Shown here piece after piece: positions 9,373-14,693 of a DNA stretch of 58,813 nt (position 1 is the stretch's first letter; every line of letters begins with the position of its first letter). The notes beneath the pieces were generated by a model that saw only the letters and a list, made by a program, of their open reading frames with translations, ran no database searches and had not been told where the DNA came from. The position numbers were made by a program, and so were the translations under genes. The stretch comes from Bacteroidota bacterium (GTDB taxonomy: Bacteria; Bacteroidota; Bacteroidia; UKL13-3). Location: the NCBI GenBank assembly GCA_947464275.1, contig CANHVU010000021.1:1-58813 (forward strand). The letters are read 5' to 3'.

Positions 9373-10020
9373 TTAATCTTCTAAGCCATCCTCAAAATCA
9401 AATTTATATAAATCATCCATGGCTGTGCTCCTATCGTATTTTATTAAATCCTTTAAAATACCATTTTTTAAACCATAAACACACCCATGCAAAATAGGAA
9501 ACTCATTTTTTTTCCAAGCTTTTTGAATTATAGATGTTTTGGCTAAATTATTTACTTGCTCAATAATATTAAACTCTACTAAAGCATCTATTTTTAGCTC
9601 TTCTTCGGTAATTTTACTTAATTCATCATTGTGCAGGCGGTATACATCTTTGATGTTTCGTAACCATTTATTTAACATACCATAATGATGATTAGTAGCC
9701 GCAGCTTTAACTCCTCCACAACCATAATGGCCGCAAACTATAATGTGTTTTACTTTTAAAACTTCTACAGCATACTTAAGCACACTTAACATATTTAAAT
9801 CGGTATTTACCACCAAGTTGGCAATGTTTCTATGTACAAAAATTTCACCTGGTTCGGTATTGGTAATTTCGTTAGCAGGCACCCTACTGTCAGAACAACC
9901 AATCCATAAAAATTCAGGTTTTTGAATATCGGCTAAGTTGTTAAAGTAATCTTTATCCAAATCCAACTTATCGCTTACCCACGATTTGTTTTGTAAAAGC
10001 AGTTTTTCGTATTCGTTCAT
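9373..10020 (-). CDS. can: Beta-class carbonic anhydrase
   Basis: Interconverts CO2 and bicarbonate. The 215-residue protein has the beta-class zinc ligands and dyad: Cys42, Asp44 and Arg46 in CSDSR, then His98 and Cys101 in GHYGCGG. The length matches the E. coli Can type, and no signal peptide is present, so it is cytoplasmic. It lies 1 nt downstream of the SulP transporter gene on the same strand, which strongly suggests cotranscription and a shared role in bicarbonate uptake and use. Confidence 0.96.
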   Translation of the reverse strand: MNEYEKLLLQNKSWVSDKLDLDKDYFNNLADIQKPEFLWIGCSDSRVPANEITNTEPGEIFVHRNIANLVVNTDLNMLSVLKYAVEVLKVKHIIVCGHYGCGGVKAAATNHHYGMLNKWLRNIKDVYRLHNDELSKITEEELKIDALVEFNIIEQVNNLAKTSIIQKAWKKNEFPILHGCVYGLKNGILKDLIKYDRSTAMDDLYKFDFEDGLED

Positions 10021-10021
10021 G

Positions 10022-11557
10022 TTAGTTTAGTTTTTTAAAATAAGGATTTGGGCTTGAAGTTGATATTTTTTTATCAACTGTAATATTTTTGCAAGGAGCC
10101 ATCAATATAAACTCTTCAATTATTTCAATTATATCTTTATCAATAAATAAAGCACTTGCACCATCAATAATGACAAATGCACCATTAGGCATTTTTTCGA
10201 AATGATTACGCAAAACAGCTTTGTTTAAAAACGAAACATTTCCTTTTAAACGAATTAAATAATTACCAGCATCGCTTGTTAGTGAAACCGAACGCTTATA
10301 GCTGTTTTTTATAATAAAATAAACCGATACCAATAAACCAATGGCAACTCCCTTTAACAAATCTGTAAAAACAATGGCTAAAACAGTAATTATAAATGGT
10401 AAAAATTGGTCTAAACCATTTTTATACAATTCTTTATACAATACAGGCTTAGTTAGTTTATATCCTACAAAAAGTAATAATATAGCTAAACTAGATAAAG
10501 GAATTTTATTCATTACAGCAGTTAAAAACAAAACACTAATTAGCAACATAATACCATGAAAAATTGCCGACATTTTTGATTTTGCACCTGCTACAATATT
10601 GGCACTGCTTCTTACTATTACCGCAGTAATAGGCAATCCACCAATTAAAGCTGAAATGGTATTTCCTGCTCCTTGAGCAATTAACTCTTTACTGGTTGGA
10701 GTCAATCGTTTTTGTTCGTCTAATTTATCAGTAGCTTCTATACTAAGTAATGTTTCTAAACTAGCCACTAAAGCTATTTTAATTGCTACTATGATTACTC
10801 CTATTTGAGCAATTTTTGAAAAATCGGGAAAATGAAAATTTTCTTTACTTAAAACAGAGGGTATTTGTACCAAATGCTCGCTAGCTAAAGCCATTTCTGG
10901 AACAGCTATTCCAATTATAATACTAAATAATGTACCAATTATAACTGCTAAAAGCGAAACAGGAACTGCTTTAAAAAAACTAAACTTTTTAATTTTTTCG
11001 TTTTCACCAAAAAACAATACGGCAAAAGTTATCAAACTTGTTAAAACTGCTGTTGTAGTAAACCTACTAAATACATTTAATAACTCAGTAAAAGTATTTT
11101 GATGATCTAATTGATCAAACGATTCATCTCCCTCAAAATCAATATCGTAACCAACAGCATGAGGTAATTGTTTAAAAATTAAAATAATACCAATTGCAGC
11201 CAACATACCTTTAATAACAGCTGATGGTACAAAATTTCCAATAATACCTGCTCCTAAAAAACCTAAAATAATTTGTATTAAGCCGGCTAAAAGTAAAGCT
11301 GTTAAAAAAATATCGAAACTACCTAATTGCTGAATAGATGCTAAAACTATTACTGTTAAACCAGCCGCAGGACCGCTAACACTGGTATGTGAGCCACTAA
11401 AAAATCCAACTATTATTCCTCCACATATACCTGCAATAATACCAGAAACCAATGGAGCACCTGAGGCTAGTGAAATGCCTAAACACAATGGCAAAGCCAC
11501 AAAAAAAACGACAACAGAAGCAGATAAGTCAGAAGAAAGATTTTCTTTTTTAAACAT
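10022..11557 (-). CDS. SulP family anion transporter with STAS domain
   Basis: A membrane transporter of about 511 residues with 10-14 hydrophobic segments. The N-terminal ALPLCLGISLASGAPL block and the GLPITAVIVRSSANI block are SulP hallmarks. The C-terminal STAS domain (about the last 90 residues) contains FVIIDGASALFIDKD. An in-frame TTG at 11581 would give a longer form, but the ATG at 11557 gives the usual start (MFKKENLSSDLSASVVVFF) and was chosen. The immediately following carbonic anhydrase gene suggests bicarbonate as substrate (BicA-like) rather than sulfate. A -7 promoter element lies at 11579-11586. Confidence 0.92.
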   Translation of the reverse strand: MFKKENLSSDLSASVVVFFVALPLCLGISLASGAPLVSGIIAGICGGIIVGFFSGSHTSVSGPAAGLTVIVLASIQQLGSFDIFLTALLLAGLIQIILGFLGAGIIGNFVPSAVIKGMLAAIGIILIFKQLPHAVGYDIDFEGDESFDQLDHQNTFTELLNVFSRFTTTAVLTSLITFAVLFFGENEKIKKFSFFKAVPVSLLAVIIGTLFSIIIGIAVPEMALASEHLVQIPSVLSKENFHFPDFSKIAQIGVIIVAIKIALVASLETLLSIEATDKLDEQKRLTPTSKELIAQGAGNTISALIGGLPITAVIVRSSANIVAGAKSKMSAIFHGIMLLISVLFLTAVMNKIPLSSLAILLLFVGYKLTKPVLYKELYKNGLDQFLPFIITVLAIVFTDLLKGVAIGLLVSVYFIIKNSYKRSVSLTSDAGNYLIRLKGNVSFLNKAVLRNHFEKMPNGAFVIIDGASALFIDKDIIEIIEEFILMAPCKNITVDKKISTSSPNPYFKKLN

Positions 11558-11578
11558 GGAGTGAGTAGTTAAATTTGT

Positions 11579-11586
11579 CAAATATA
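11579..11586 (-). promoter_or_regulatory. Candidate Bacteroidota -7 element for the SulP-can operon
   Basis: Minus-strand TATATTTG matches TAnnTTTG exactly and ends about 21 nt before the chosen SulP ATG. No clear TTTG at -33 with ideal spacing was found, so this is a partial match. Confidence 0.45.
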
Positions 11587-11705: not shown

Positions 11706-12230
11706 TTGGAAACAGAAAAAATATATAATGAACACAAAAACTTGGTGTATAACTTGGCACTTCAGTATGTTCAAAACATGGAAGATGCTGAGGAAATTAC
11801 GCAAGATGTATTTTTATCCATTTACCAATCAATAGACAGTTTTAGAGAAGAATCTAAACTAAGCACTTGGATTTATAAAATTACTATCAATAAATCAATT
11901 GACCTCATCAATAAACGTAATCGCAAGAAACGTTTTGCATTTCTTACTAGCCTATTTAACTCAGAAAATGACAAATTGATACACGAACCTATTCACTTCA
12001 ATCATCCAGGAGTTCAATTAGAGCAAAAAGAAGCCTTGAAAAATTTATTTGAATTAATAAATCAATTGCCCGAAAAACAACAAACAACGCTGATATTAAT
12101 AAAAATTGAGCAAAAATCGTTAGTTGAAACTGCTAATATTATGGAAATTAGTCCTAAAGCAGTTGAATCTTTATTACACAGAGCTAAAGTTAATTTGCAA
12201 AAAAAGTTACAAAATATCGAAGGAAAATAA
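11706..12230 (+). CDS. ECF-type RNA polymerase sigma factor
   Basis: A sigma-70 family factor of the extracytoplasmic function group, 174 residues, which directs RNA polymerase to a small regulon. Region 2 covers about residues 8-75 (core-binding YNLALQYVQNMEDAEEITQ and the LSTWIYKITINKSIDL helix). Region 4 covers about 115-170 (LPEKQQTTLILI and the helix-turn-helix around ISPKAVESLLHRAK). There is no in-frame ATG near the start: a TAA sits at 11679-11681 and the first ATG is residue 26, so TTG at 11706 is the likely start. It heads a five-gene run in which the next two genes resemble an anti-sigma factor and its periplasmic sensor. It is divergent from the SulP gene. Confidence 0.92.
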   Translation: METEKIYNEHKNLVYNLALQYVQNMEDAEEITQDVFLSIYQSIDSFREESKLSTWIYKITINKSIDLINKRNRKKRFAFLTSLFNSENDKLIHEPIHFNHPGVQLEQKEALKNLFELINQLPEKQQTTLILIKIEQKSLVETANIMEISPKAVESLLHRAKVNLQKKLQNIEGK

Positions 12231-12258
12231 AAAAACAATAGTCTAAAATAATATCGCC

Positions 12259-12528
12259 ATGAATAATGAGATTATAGATAACGAGCTAAACAAACTAGGA
12301 CATATACAAAAAGTAGATGCTCCTCATTTTTTGTTTACTCGCATACAAGCTAAAATTTACCAACAAAACCAAAGGTTTGAGCCTAAATTGGTTTGGAAAT
12401 TAAGTATTGCCATGGTATTTATTTTATTATTGAATGCTGTTGTAATTACAATCAACCTAAAACCCCAAAAACAAGAAAATAGCCTAGCAAAAGCTATGCA
12501 TTTGATTCCTAATAACGAGTTATATTAA
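12259..12528 (+). CDS. Single-span membrane protein, putative anti-sigma factor (CnrY-like)
   Basis: An 89-residue protein with a short cytoplasmic N-terminal part (about 1-44, charged and helical), one transmembrane segment (about 47-67) and a short tail. No enzyme motif and no zinc-binding anti-sigma (ZAS) motif is present. Its size, topology and position directly after an ECF sigma gene and before a CnrX-like periplasmic protein match the CnrY type of anti-sigma factor. This is inference from architecture; no sequence identity to CnrY could be tested. Its stop overlaps the next ATG by 1 nt, so the two are translationally coupled. Confidence 0.7.
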   Translation: MNNEIIDNELNKLGHIQKVDAPHFLFTRIQAKIYQQNQRFEPKLVWKLSIAMVFILLLNAVVITINLKPQKQENSLAKAMHLIPNNELY

Positions 12529-12977
12529 TGAATAAAATAAAACTTTTAAGCATACTGGTAATTGGATTATTGGTTGCAAATATTATACTAATTATATTTT
12601 TGTTTTTAAGTAAAAACAATAGGCCAAAGCACGAAGGACCAAGAGATGAAATTATTCAAAAATTGGACTTTACTCCTGAACAAATAACTGATTACGATGG
12701 TATTATTTTAGAACACAGAAAAGCCATTAAAGAAGCTGATAGACAAATAATGCAATTAAAAAATGAATTGTATAAAGGCTTAAATAACAATACAAATGGT
12801 GCAGCAAAAGACTCACTTATTGCAGAAATAGGCAAAACTCAAATACAAATTGAAAATATTCATTATAAACATTTTGAAAATATAAAAGTCATTTGCAAAC
12901 CTGGCCAACAAATGCAAAAATTTGAACTATTAACAACCGAAATTGCCCAATTATTTAACCATAAGCCAAAACAATAA
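12528..12977 (+). CDS. Periplasmic heavy-metal sensor/Spy-CpxP-like protein (CnrX-like)
   Basis: A 149-residue protein anchored by an N-terminal transmembrane helix (about 6-27), with a periplasmic all-helical domain. The sequence LDFTPEQITDYDGIILEHRK is the helix-hinge pattern of the Spy/CpxP and metal-resistance (CnrX/CzcE-neighbour) superfamily. A C-terminal ICKPGQQMQKFELL block is typical of the Bacteroidota version. In CnrX-type systems this domain binds metal and releases the sigma factor through the membrane anti-sigma factor; Spy-type relatives are chaperones. Here its place between a putative anti-sigma gene and mbnP/mbnH favours a sensor role. The gene starts inside the previous stop codon (1-nt overlap). 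Confidence 0.78.
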   Translation: MNKIKLLSILVIGLLVANIILIIFLFLSKNNRPKHEGPRDEIIQKLDFTPEQITDYDGIILEHRKAIKEADRQIMQLKNELYKGLNNNTNGAAKDSLIAEIGKTQIQIENIHYKHFENIKVICKPGQQMQKFELLTTEIAQLFNHKPKQ

Positions 12978-12981
12978 AGAC

Positions 12982-13671
12982 ATGAAGTTAAGTAGGTATG
13001 TTGTATTGATTTTATGTATTTCTTGTTCATTTGTATTTGCTCAAAAAAATACACTTGTTCAAGTTAATTTCAAGGGATTGTTTAATAATTTACCTTTACA
13101 GTTAGATAGCAACTATATTTTACCTAATAATGATACGGTCAGTATAGAAACTTGCAGATTTTATGTTTCAAAAATTCAGTTATTCAATAACAACCAAGTA
13201 GTTTTTACTGATTCAACCTTAGCTTATTTAATTGATTTAGCAAATCCAACATCATTAACCATTAATTTATTATACCCACAAACCCTAAAATACAATGCCA
13301 TTCAATTTAATTTAGGAATTGATAGTAACATAAACGTTTCTGAAGTATTGAGCGGAGATTTAGACCCAACCAAAGGCATGTATTGGGCTTGGCAAAGCGG
13401 TTATATCAATTTTAAAATAGAAGGCAAAAGTAAAAATAGTCCATCAAGATACAAGCAGTTTCAATACCATTTAGGCGGTTATTTATATCCTAATAATGCT
13501 TTGCAAACACTGCGTTTTAAAACCAATAAAAAACAAAAAATTACTTTTATATTAGAGGTAGATAAATTCTTAACTGGTTTAGACATCAGTAAGGTATATC
13601 AAATTATGTCGCCAAGCGAAAACAGTGTTTTACTTTCAAAAAAATTAGCACAATTATTTAAAGTAAAATGA
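12982..13671 (+). CDS. mbnP: MbnP family copper-binding protein
   Basis: About 229 residues from the ATG at 12982. A longer frame starts upstream, but the signal peptide (about 1-20, ending FVFAQ) fixes this start. Family marks are DSNYILPNNDTVSIETCRFYVSK, IDLANP, GDLDPTKGMYWAW and YHLGGY. MbnP proteins are periplasmic or surface copper proteins; in the studied methanotroph pair, MbnH oxidises a Trp of MbnP to kynurenine to form the copper site. Trp135 and Trp137 in the conserved MYWAWQSGY block are the candidate targets here. The stop overlaps the mbnH ATG by 4 nt, so coupling is tight. Confidence 0.88.
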   Translation: MKLSRYVVLILCISCSFVFAQKNTLVQVNFKGLFNNLPLQLDSNYILPNNDTVSIETCRFYVSKIQLFNNNQVVFTDSTLAYLIDLANPTSLTINLLYPQTLKYNAIQFNLGIDSNINVSEVLSGDLDPTKGMYWAWQSGYINFKIEGKSKNSPSRYKQFQYHLGGYLYPNNALQTLRFKTNKKQKITFILEVDKFLTGLDISKVYQIMSPSENSVLLSKKLAQLFKVK

Positions 13672-14693
13672 AAAAGTACTTATTTGTTTTAATGGCTATT
13701 GTTTTGGTTTTCTGTGGCTTTAAGCTACAATCAACTTTTGATATTATTATTCCAAATGGTTGGCCAAAACATGCTTATGATTTTAGTAAAAATCAACTCA
13801 CAGAGGAAAAGATTTTACTTGGTCGTGTTTTGTTTTACGACCCAATCCTTTCAAAAAATAATACCATTTCTTGTGCTTCGTGCCACTCGCAATACACCGC
13901 CTTTACCCATGTTGACCATGCTTTAAGCCATGGAATAGAAGATAGGATTGGAAATAGAAATGCTCCTGCTTTAATGAATTTGGCTTGGCATACCAATTTT
14001 ATGTGGGACGGTGCCATACATCATTTAGATTTTCAATCGTTAGCGCCTATTGAAAACCACGATGAAATGGATGAAAAAATAGAACAAGTTATTTTAAAAC
14101 TTAACCAATTGCCACGTTATAAAAACCTGTTTTTAAATGCCTATGGCGATAGTTTGATTACGGGCGAAAGAACCTTAAAAGCTTTGTCGCAATTTATGTT
14201 AACCCTTGTTAGCGCTAACAGTAAATATGATAAAGTAATGCAGCAAAAAGATACTTTTACCCAACAAGAACAAAACGGTTATTTACTTTTTAAACAACAT
14301 TGTGCAAGCTGCCATACCGAACCATTATTTACCAACCTTCAGTTTGAAAACAATGGTTTGCCTGTTGATTCTATTTTAAACGATTGGGGAAGAATGCGTA
14401 TTACGCAAAAAGCCAACGATTCACTCAAATTTAAAGTACCTACTTTACGCAATATTGAATTTTCGTTTCCATATATGCACGATGGAAGATTTAAAAAGCT
14501 ATCTCAAGTATTGAATCATTATACCAACGGAATAGTGCATTACACCAACCTCTCTCCCACTTTAAAGCAAACCATTATACTTACCAGTAACCAAAAAGTA
14601 GATATTACCGCCTTTTTACTTACCCTAACCGACAAAGAATTTTTATTTAACAAGCAATTTAACTACCCGAAAGAAGCAAACCATTTAAAATAA
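13668..14693 (+). CDS. mbnH: MbnH-like di-heme cytochrome c peroxidase family enzyme
   Basis: A 341-residue exported di-heme protein of the bacterial cytochrome c peroxidase/MauG superfamily. It has an N-terminal signal segment (about 1-19), heme sites CASCH at 69-73 and CASCH at 212-216, and conserved RNAPALMNLAW, FMWDGAIHHLDFQ and PYMHDGRF blocks. MbnH uses two hemes in a high-valent state to oxidise Trp in MbnP. The gene overlaps mbnP by 4 nt and ends the operon. A classical peroxide-detoxifying CcpA role is possible, but the mbnP partner and the short length favour MbnH. Heme ligation requires export and c-type maturation. Confidence 0.88.
   Translation: MKKYLFVLMAIVLVFCGFKLQSTFDIIIPNGWPKHAYDFSKNQLTEEKILLGRVLFYDPILSKNNTISCASCHSQYTAFTHVDHALSHGIEDRIGNRNAPALMNLAWHTNFMWDGAIHHLDFQSLAPIENHDEMDEKIEQVILKLNQLPRYKNLFLNAYGDSLITGERTLKALSQFMLTLVSANSKYDKVMQQKDTFTQQEQNGYLLFKQHCASCHTEPLFTNLQFENNGLPVDSILNDWGRMRITQKANDSLKFKVPTLRNIEFSFPYMHDGRFKKLSQVLNHYTNGIVHYTNLSPTLKQTIILTSNQKVDITAFLLTLTDKEFLFNKQFNYPKEANHLK

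Follow-up and report, generated by a model that had tools for sequence, protein, structure and literature searches.

A 58,813-nucleotide (nt) stretch of DNA from a Bacteroidota bacterium (contig CANHVU010000021.1 of assembly GCA_947464275.1), here called the window and used for all coordinates, carries at 11706-14693 on the forward strand a five-gene unit that is a real, conserved operon. It encodes an extracytoplasmic function (ECF) sigma factor, a single-span protein of 89 amino acids (aa), a 149-aa protein here called the sensor, and the proteins MbnP and MbnH. It is rather probable that the first three genes (the triad) form a circuit like CnrYXH of Cupriavidus, which would sense copper in the periplasm and control a copper-protein module in one direction or the other; this estimate covers both directions and overlaps with that for the copper-starvation variant weighed below. 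Judged from gene company, the coupling of the triad to copper-protein genes is a promising candidate for a copper-response system. The five genes are as follows.

11706-12230, forward strand: ECF sigma factor, 174 aa from a TTG start (Sigma70_r2, E 2.2e-18; r4_2, E 5.4e-12)
12259-12528, forward strand: 89-aa single-span protein, putative anti-sigma factor, with about 45 residues ahead of the membrane span
12528-12977, forward strand: 149-aa sensor, one N-terminal span and then a periplasmic helical domain with a predicted CnrX fold
12982-13671, forward strand: MbnP, 229 aa from an ATG start (PF20243, E 2.5e-41), with a WxW motif
13668-14693, forward strand: MbnH, 341 aa, di-haem MauG-like (CCP_MauG, PF03150, E 1.5e-53), with two CxxCH motifs

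The open reading frame (ORF) coordinates and the Pfam and NCBIfam matches agree with an earlier, sequence-only reading of this DNA, which described five tightly spaced genes, none more than 28 nt from the next, with overlaps of 1 and 4 nt; in order, the genes are separated by 28 nt, a 1-nt overlap, 4 nt and a 4-nt overlap, taking MbnP from its ATG at 12982 (the mechanical ORF begins at 12943). The sigma factor contains regions 2 and 4 only (PF04542 and PF08281, both over cut-off) and is thus of ECF type, with SigW as its best PDB sequence match (E 2.9e-18) and CnrH at E 3.2e-08 (27% identity over 146 columns), and its TTG start is also found in several relatives.

The layout is beyond chance because the same gene order recurs in many Bacteroidota. 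Among the 247 genomes of the class, 44, own genome counted, encode a homologue of the sensor, and MbnP (PF20243) is common there (179/247). Neighbourhoods were compared in 44 stretches around sensor homologues from 43 other genomes of the class, with locus L053 and the spurious match L073 kept in and both counted as having no cargo. A sigma gene lies upstream of the sensor on the same strand in 41/44 stretches, and the order sigma, sensor, MbnP, MbnH that the sequence-only reading had proposed to look for elsewhere is kept in 20/44, with MbnP directly after the sensor (mechanical start at most 134 nt from the sensor stop). Sensor and MbnP genes overlap by 4 nt in 10 of these 20 direct operons, and a YHYH protein (PF14240) follows MbnH in 17, the other three being L033 (same genus), L046 (a sulfatase) and L049 (contig end). 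In three further stretches (L058, L065, and L067) YHYH comes first and MbnP-MbnH later, and L068 has only MbnH of the pair. Other cargo consists of a short YHYH protein, a MORN-type protein and SCO1 (4/44), two YHYH genes (1/44), a YHYH gene 2.5 kb off past opposite-strand genes (1/44), or a large TonB-type outer-membrane protein (3/44; L069 and L071 by Pfam, L076 by sequence cluster). The YHYH-MORN-SCO1 form replaces MbnP/MbnH after the triad in L119, L120, L035, L036, L048, and L059, with a TonB-type protein in between in L048.

A second search, of named genomes, returned 14 loci. Six were repeats (of L033, L034, L035, L036, L039, and L046) and enter neither the trees nor the motif counts; six of the eight new loci have MbnP, and Pedobacter segetis and P. 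psychrophilus show the YHYH-MORN-SCO1 form. At E 1e-4 the sensor profile matches 126 of 296 genomes of the phylum, a count of profile matches and not of neighbourhoods. Two loci have interrupted genes: the sensor gene of L053 (5011-5514) contains an in-frame stop, with no sigma gene found beside it, and is perhaps a decaying copy, and MbnH of L117 (7133-8172) is broken into two ORFs by a frame break or an assembly error.

The predicted structure of the 149-aa protein has the CnrX fold, an assignment made because CnrX tops the structural alignment and a separate profile comparison also pairs the two. The AlphaFold2 model, built from 15 sequences (mean predicted local distance difference test score 88.4, predicted template-modelling score 0.66), consists of a long N-terminal helix followed by a helical domain. 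When it was aligned to 973 PDB chains with VIA-align, the top eight entries were all CnrX of Cupriavidus (Z 10.2-11.6), the best being chain 2y3h_B of 109 residues (Z 11.6, root-mean-square deviation 2.4 Å, 106 residues aligned), followed by a VirG-like protein (Z 9.6 and 9.4) and by NccX, Spy and CpxP (8.7-8.9). Independently, the sensor profile matches CnrX in hhalign at E 2.2e-4 (probability 45%). The window's sensor matches the Pfam family Metal_resist (PF13801) below threshold (E 0.28, 11.8 bits vs a cut-off of 29.2); the family is matched by 18 of 25 sensor relatives (E up to 0.5, best 6.1e-12) and by CnrX itself, which belongs to it, at E 7.5e-26, and LTXXQ is matched by 5/25 relatives. 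The likeness to CnrH-CnrY-CnrX drawn by the sequence-only reading thus stands for the sensor, by fold and by profile search of its relatives, and falls short on two counts given below: in sequence the 89-aa protein is unlike CnrY, and the nickel/cobalt (Ni/Co) ligand set of CnrX is not kept.

Conserved residues of the sensor and of the two membrane spans are given below, the 43-row counts leaving out L073, which has no sigma gene, and L053, and the counts for membrane spans also leaving out L053.

12714-12716, forward strand: His63 of the sensor, candidate metal ligand, present in 42/43 rows
12870-12872, forward strand: His115 of the sensor, candidate ligand, present in 40/43 rows and aligned with CnrX His119
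12894-12896, forward strand: Cys123 of the sensor, first place of an LTxxQ-like motif, Cys in 38 and Leu in 5 of 43 rows
12579-12581, forward strand: Asn18 within the membrane span of the sensor, 44/44 rows, one of them (L073) spurious
12433-12435, forward strand: Asn59 within the span of the 89-aa protein, Asn in 34, Glu in 4, Ser in 2 and Gln in 1 of 41 rows, three of which (L069, L071, and L076, all Asn) are doubtful picks

His63, His115 and Cys123 are all present in 21/21 sensors of direct MbnP operons, window counted, and Cys123 is invariant across the 25-row sensor alignment. By the geometry of the helix hairpin, with its turn at residues 87-90 of the model, His63 should face His115, and a His or Met occurs in the linker joining the span to the sensor domain in 35/43 rows. 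Asn is rare elsewhere in the spans (2/783 other places in the sensor, 8/637 in the 89-aa protein), and the polar residue lies on average 10.0 (sensor) and 12.6 residues (89-aa protein) into the best hydrophobic stretch. From this pattern, the buried polar residues likely form a membrane contact between both proteins, and they could instead serve dimer formation within each.

The 89-aa protein, a putative anti-sigma factor, takes the position of CnrY. A homologue was found by phmmer in 25/44 stretches, including 14 of the 20 direct operons. One span preceded by some 45 residues is a topology that would fit a CnrY-like anti-sigma factor, CnrY using two helices for binding (PMC7406223; PMC numbers throughout refer to excerpts of the papers). 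As a class II anti-sigma factor, the protein would bind the ECF sigma factor through its short N-terminal region. According to the same excerpt, class I anti-sigma domains lie near only 6% of Bacteroidetes ECF sigma factors, and other anti-sigma classes are therefore expected. By sequence the protein is not CnrY: the CnrY family (PF17524) is absent among the 23 families matched by 23 members of the 89-aa family (E up to 0.5), and hhalign against CnrY gives a probability of 0.7%. A PDB sequence search with the 89-aa profile returned nothing under E 2.5, and neither the protein nor its 22 relatives match FecR.

MbnP (142.1 bits against PF20243, cut-off 27) matches NCBIfam MbnP_like_WxW (TIGR04052) at E 6.6e-13 with 48.6 bits, under the equivalog cut-off of 140, and MbnH matches TIGR04039 at E 3e-60 with 204.1 bits, under the cut-off of 362.85; both are therefore members of the wider families and not close copies of the characterised proteins. 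The WxW motif of MbnP (Trp135 and Trp137; 13384-13392, forward strand) and His163 are each present in 30 of 31 MbnPs. In MbnH, Tyr285 is present in 30/31 rows, the remaining row being a gap, and aligns with a Met of cytochrome c peroxidase 3o5c; a Tyr in place of the peroxidase Met marks enzymes of the MauG/MbnH type.

In a quick tree of 77 MbnPs (the cut MbnP of L113 was left out of this tree and of a smaller one), the sequences split in two, with support of 80 for the split and of 99 for 32 of the 33 rows of one side. One side holds 44 rows, of which 26 are directly linked to a triad and 18 were taken without one; the other holds 27 usual MbnPs, the own genome's second copy, those of L058, L065 and L067, in which YHYH comes first, and two more without a triad. 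Linked and unlinked MbnPs are intermixed within the first side, which points to repeated gain or loss of the triad. In the smaller tree, likewise a quick one, the comparison set was the 30 top-scoring Pfam matches, a choice biased towards the usual type, and the 26 linked MbnPs appeared as a clean clade of their own; this was not upheld after 20 further MbnPs, picked by size and score, had been added. Neither the small membrane gene nor the sensor shows up in any of these 20 stretches (L138, which stops 232 nt upstream of MbnP, is not judgeable), and MbnH follows MbnP in 19/20 and YHYH is present in 13/20. From these stretches MbnP-MbnH forms an independent unit that often includes YHYH and with which the triad is frequently but not constantly associated. 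One of them, L144 (5726-6553), carries upstream of MbnP-MbnH-YHYH a sigma-like ORF of 109 aa and then a 164-aa ORF resembling its second half; no sensor was found there.

By the company its genes keep, the circuit probably responds to copper. Besides MbnP and MbnH themselves, SCO1 of the alternative cargo (PF02630, E 8e-22) belongs to a copper chaperone family, and in the own genome the YHYH gene that usually follows MbnH sits away from the operon, in a run on contig C26 (L125, 1476-9600) of genes for multicopper oxidase, sulfatase, YHYH, thioredoxin-like and redoxin-like proteins, followed by a TonB receptor. The same genome has a second MbnP-MbnH pair on contig C34 (L077, 6984-11474), whose MbnP groups with the usual ones in the tree. 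Genes for an HMA-domain protein and a TonB receptor come next, and the whole is likely a copper uptake locus.

In the proposed circuit, the membrane-anchored CnrX-fold sensor, a dimer if it is like CnrX, would bind copper at a site of which His63 and His115 are part. Within the membrane, the 89-aa protein would pick up the state of the sensor, and with its cytoplasmic part it would hold the ECF sigma factor. On the signal the sigma factor would be freed and the operon transcribed, perhaps along with the unlinked YHYH and multicopper oxidase genes, and MbnH would oxidise a tryptophan of MbnP and so make it able to bind copper. The circuit is favoured because gene order is conserved (20/44 direct, three more after YHYH, sigma gene upstream in 41/44), because CnrX supplies the eight best structural entries as well as the hhalign match, and because the three sensor residues recur throughout the direct operons and both spans carry a polar residue; a copper cargo is favoured because of the SCO1 alternative and the own-genome YHYH gene in the multicopper oxidase run. 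In CnrX metal binding releases the sigma factor (PMC7689651), and by analogy we lean modestly towards the same direction here over the reverse.

Several results weigh against this circuit. The Z of 11.6 between sensor and CnrX is below the 13 advised by the tool for helical bundles and may reflect a common arrangement; none of the Foldseek hits of the sensor model reaches E 0.001, and the VirG-like protein ranks first, with the best CnrX at E 0.093, behind VirG-like and NccX, and a PDB sequence search with the sensor profile did not find CnrX, its best match being the VirG-like protein (E 0.023). The Ni/Co ligands of CnrX are His42, His46, Glu63, His119 and Met123, and only His119 has a counterpart by hhalign (His115 of the sensor); His42, His46, Glu63 and Met123 fall on R39, I43, I60 and I119. 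Met is found at sensor position 119 in 0/43 rows, and Met123 of CnrX is required for Ni/Co signalling (PMC7689651). His115 and Cys123, eight residues apart on one helix, would be too distant to bind the same metal; the idea of both as ligands of one site was dropped for this spacing and for the Leu at 123 in 5/43 rows, and on the same grounds Cys123 may equally well open an LTxxQ-type motif. The 89-aa protein has no Pfam or NCBIfam match and hence matches no anti-sigma family, and six of the 20 direct operons have no phmmer homologue of it, of which four have an ORF of 78-96 aa in that place, and two (L040 and L061) list no ORF of at least 70 aa there. Eleven of 44 stretches, including the contig end L072 and the spurious L073, lack any of the named cargo, and among 18 MbnPs of the same clade without a triad, the 17 with readable upstream DNA show no sensor (0/17). 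No clear shared ECF promoter motif was found upstream of the sigma genes when near and far halves of 38 sequences were compared: TANNTTTG occurs 4 vs 3 times, TA-N2-3-TTTG 10 vs 4, TANNTTG 13 vs 7 and AAC-N14-18-CGT 5 vs 2. The weak excesses in the near half sit in AT-rich DNA and are not claimed as a promoter, and the upstream region of the operon shares at most 9 consecutive nt with those of the multicopper oxidase gene and the second mbnP in the own genome. Since the promoter search gave no motif, autoregulation is proposed from the operon layout. Finally, the copper repression of CorA and MopE (PMC3912023) is at odds with metal-induced release.

That repression is the starting point of the strongest alternative, a response to copper starvation, in which the same parts would free the sigma factor when the sensor loses its metal and MbnP, MbnH and YHYH would serve copper capture. 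It is a variant not exclusive of the proposed circuit, possible though on the unlikely side. Besides the repression, it would account for the TonB-type outer-membrane proteins downstream of the triad in L048, L069 and L071, the beginning of such a protein, limited to its regulatory domain, in L037, the HMA protein and TonB receptor beside the own genome's second MbnP-MbnH pair, and the finding of an efflux pump in 0/16 scanned downstream proteins (6 + 10), a scan outside which most downstream genes fall (46 unlabelled ones are listed). The behaviour of CnrX, which frees its sigma factor on binding metal (PMC7689651), speaks against it. Envelope stress is a doubtful alternative, in which the 149-aa protein would act like Spy/CpxP, sensing misfolded protein, or redox state via Cys123, with the copper proteins as one output. 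The resemblance of the model to Spy and CpxP, the LTXXQ matches and the invariance of Cys123 in 25 rows would suit this role, but CnrX ranks above both (Z 11.6 vs 8.9), the sensor has a conserved His pair, it is predicted to be anchored in the membrane, and its gene comes after those for a sigma factor and a single-span protein, as with Cnr. A sensor for zinc, cobalt or nickel that sits with MbnP/MbnH by chance is more improbable still: CnrX was crystallised with Ni, Co, Zn and Cu (PDB entry titles) and the His pair could bind zinc, but the Met needed for Ni/Co signalling (PMC7689651) is missing in 43/43 sensors and much of the cargo is copper-related. That triad and copper genes are mere neighbours with no regulation between them is very hard to credit given the 4-nt overlap in half of the direct operons and a second, differently ordered association with the other MbnP clade (L058, L065, and L067), even though the MbnP clade also occurs without the triad and the triad with other genes.

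Among known systems, CnrYXH of Cupriavidus metallidurans pMOL28 is like the operon in uniting an ECF sigma factor, a small single-span protein and a periplasmic sensor of the same predicted fold with metal genes. It differs in gene order (Y-X-H there; sigma, small protein, sensor here), in its small protein, which has the same place but another sequence, in its sensor (Met123 is not kept here and CnrX His42/His46 fall on R39/I43), and in its cargo, a resistance-nodulation-division (RND) efflux pump in place of MbnP/MbnH(/YHYH). The sequence-only reading knew of no described case joining the two systems, which was too broad: FecIR-type ECF genes, mbnI and mbnR, were described near mbnP/mbnH of Methylosinus in 2013 (PMC3621798). 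Those too are genes for an ECF sigma factor and a membrane regulator close to mbnP-mbnH, but according to the excerpt MbnR is FecR-type with proposed signalling through a TonB receptor, whereas no FecR domain was found here and no receptor is among the five operon genes. As to the narrower claim, no CnrX-type circuit joined to MbnP/MbnH was found in the open-access literature searched, a search outside which most subscription papers lie. CorA/CorB and MopE/SACCP of methanotrophs similarly pair a copper protein with a modified Trp with a MauG-like di-haem partner, with no sigma factor triad mentioned in the excerpt (PMC3912023), and MbnP is described as not markedly similar in sequence to CorA/MopE-type proteins (PMC3621798). 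In Azospirillum brasilense, RpoE8, a hypothetical protein and a periplasmic heavy metal sensor share the three-gene layout, but that operon is raised on RpoE6 overproduction and the excerpt notes no MbnP/MbnH (PMC12826043).

If the proposed circuit is right, the MbnP/MbnH copper pair would gain a dedicated sensor and switch outside methanotrophs, the CnrX fold would have been turned to another metal, one missing anti-sigma type of Bacteroidota would be supplied and the YHYH family would gain a functional setting. More tentatively, and somewhat short of an even chance, copper-dedicated ECF circuits of this kind may be widespread in Bacteroidota, with a rebuilt His-based site in the CnrX fold and buried polar residues that signal to a new minimal anti-sigma family, switching on a separate clade of Trp-modified MbnP together with YHYH as a copper protein.

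Other genes accompany the triad or the operon. Proteins of ~80, ~350, ~465 and >700 aa come after the triad in both L060 and L064; among those of L060, Pfam identifies an ATP-grasp protein and a urea transporter that also carries a peptidase M23 domain. In the window, divergent from the operon on the reverse strand (9373-11581), adjoining genes encode a carbonic anhydrase (PF00484) and a transporter of the sulfate permease family (PF00916), which look like a bicarbonate pair.

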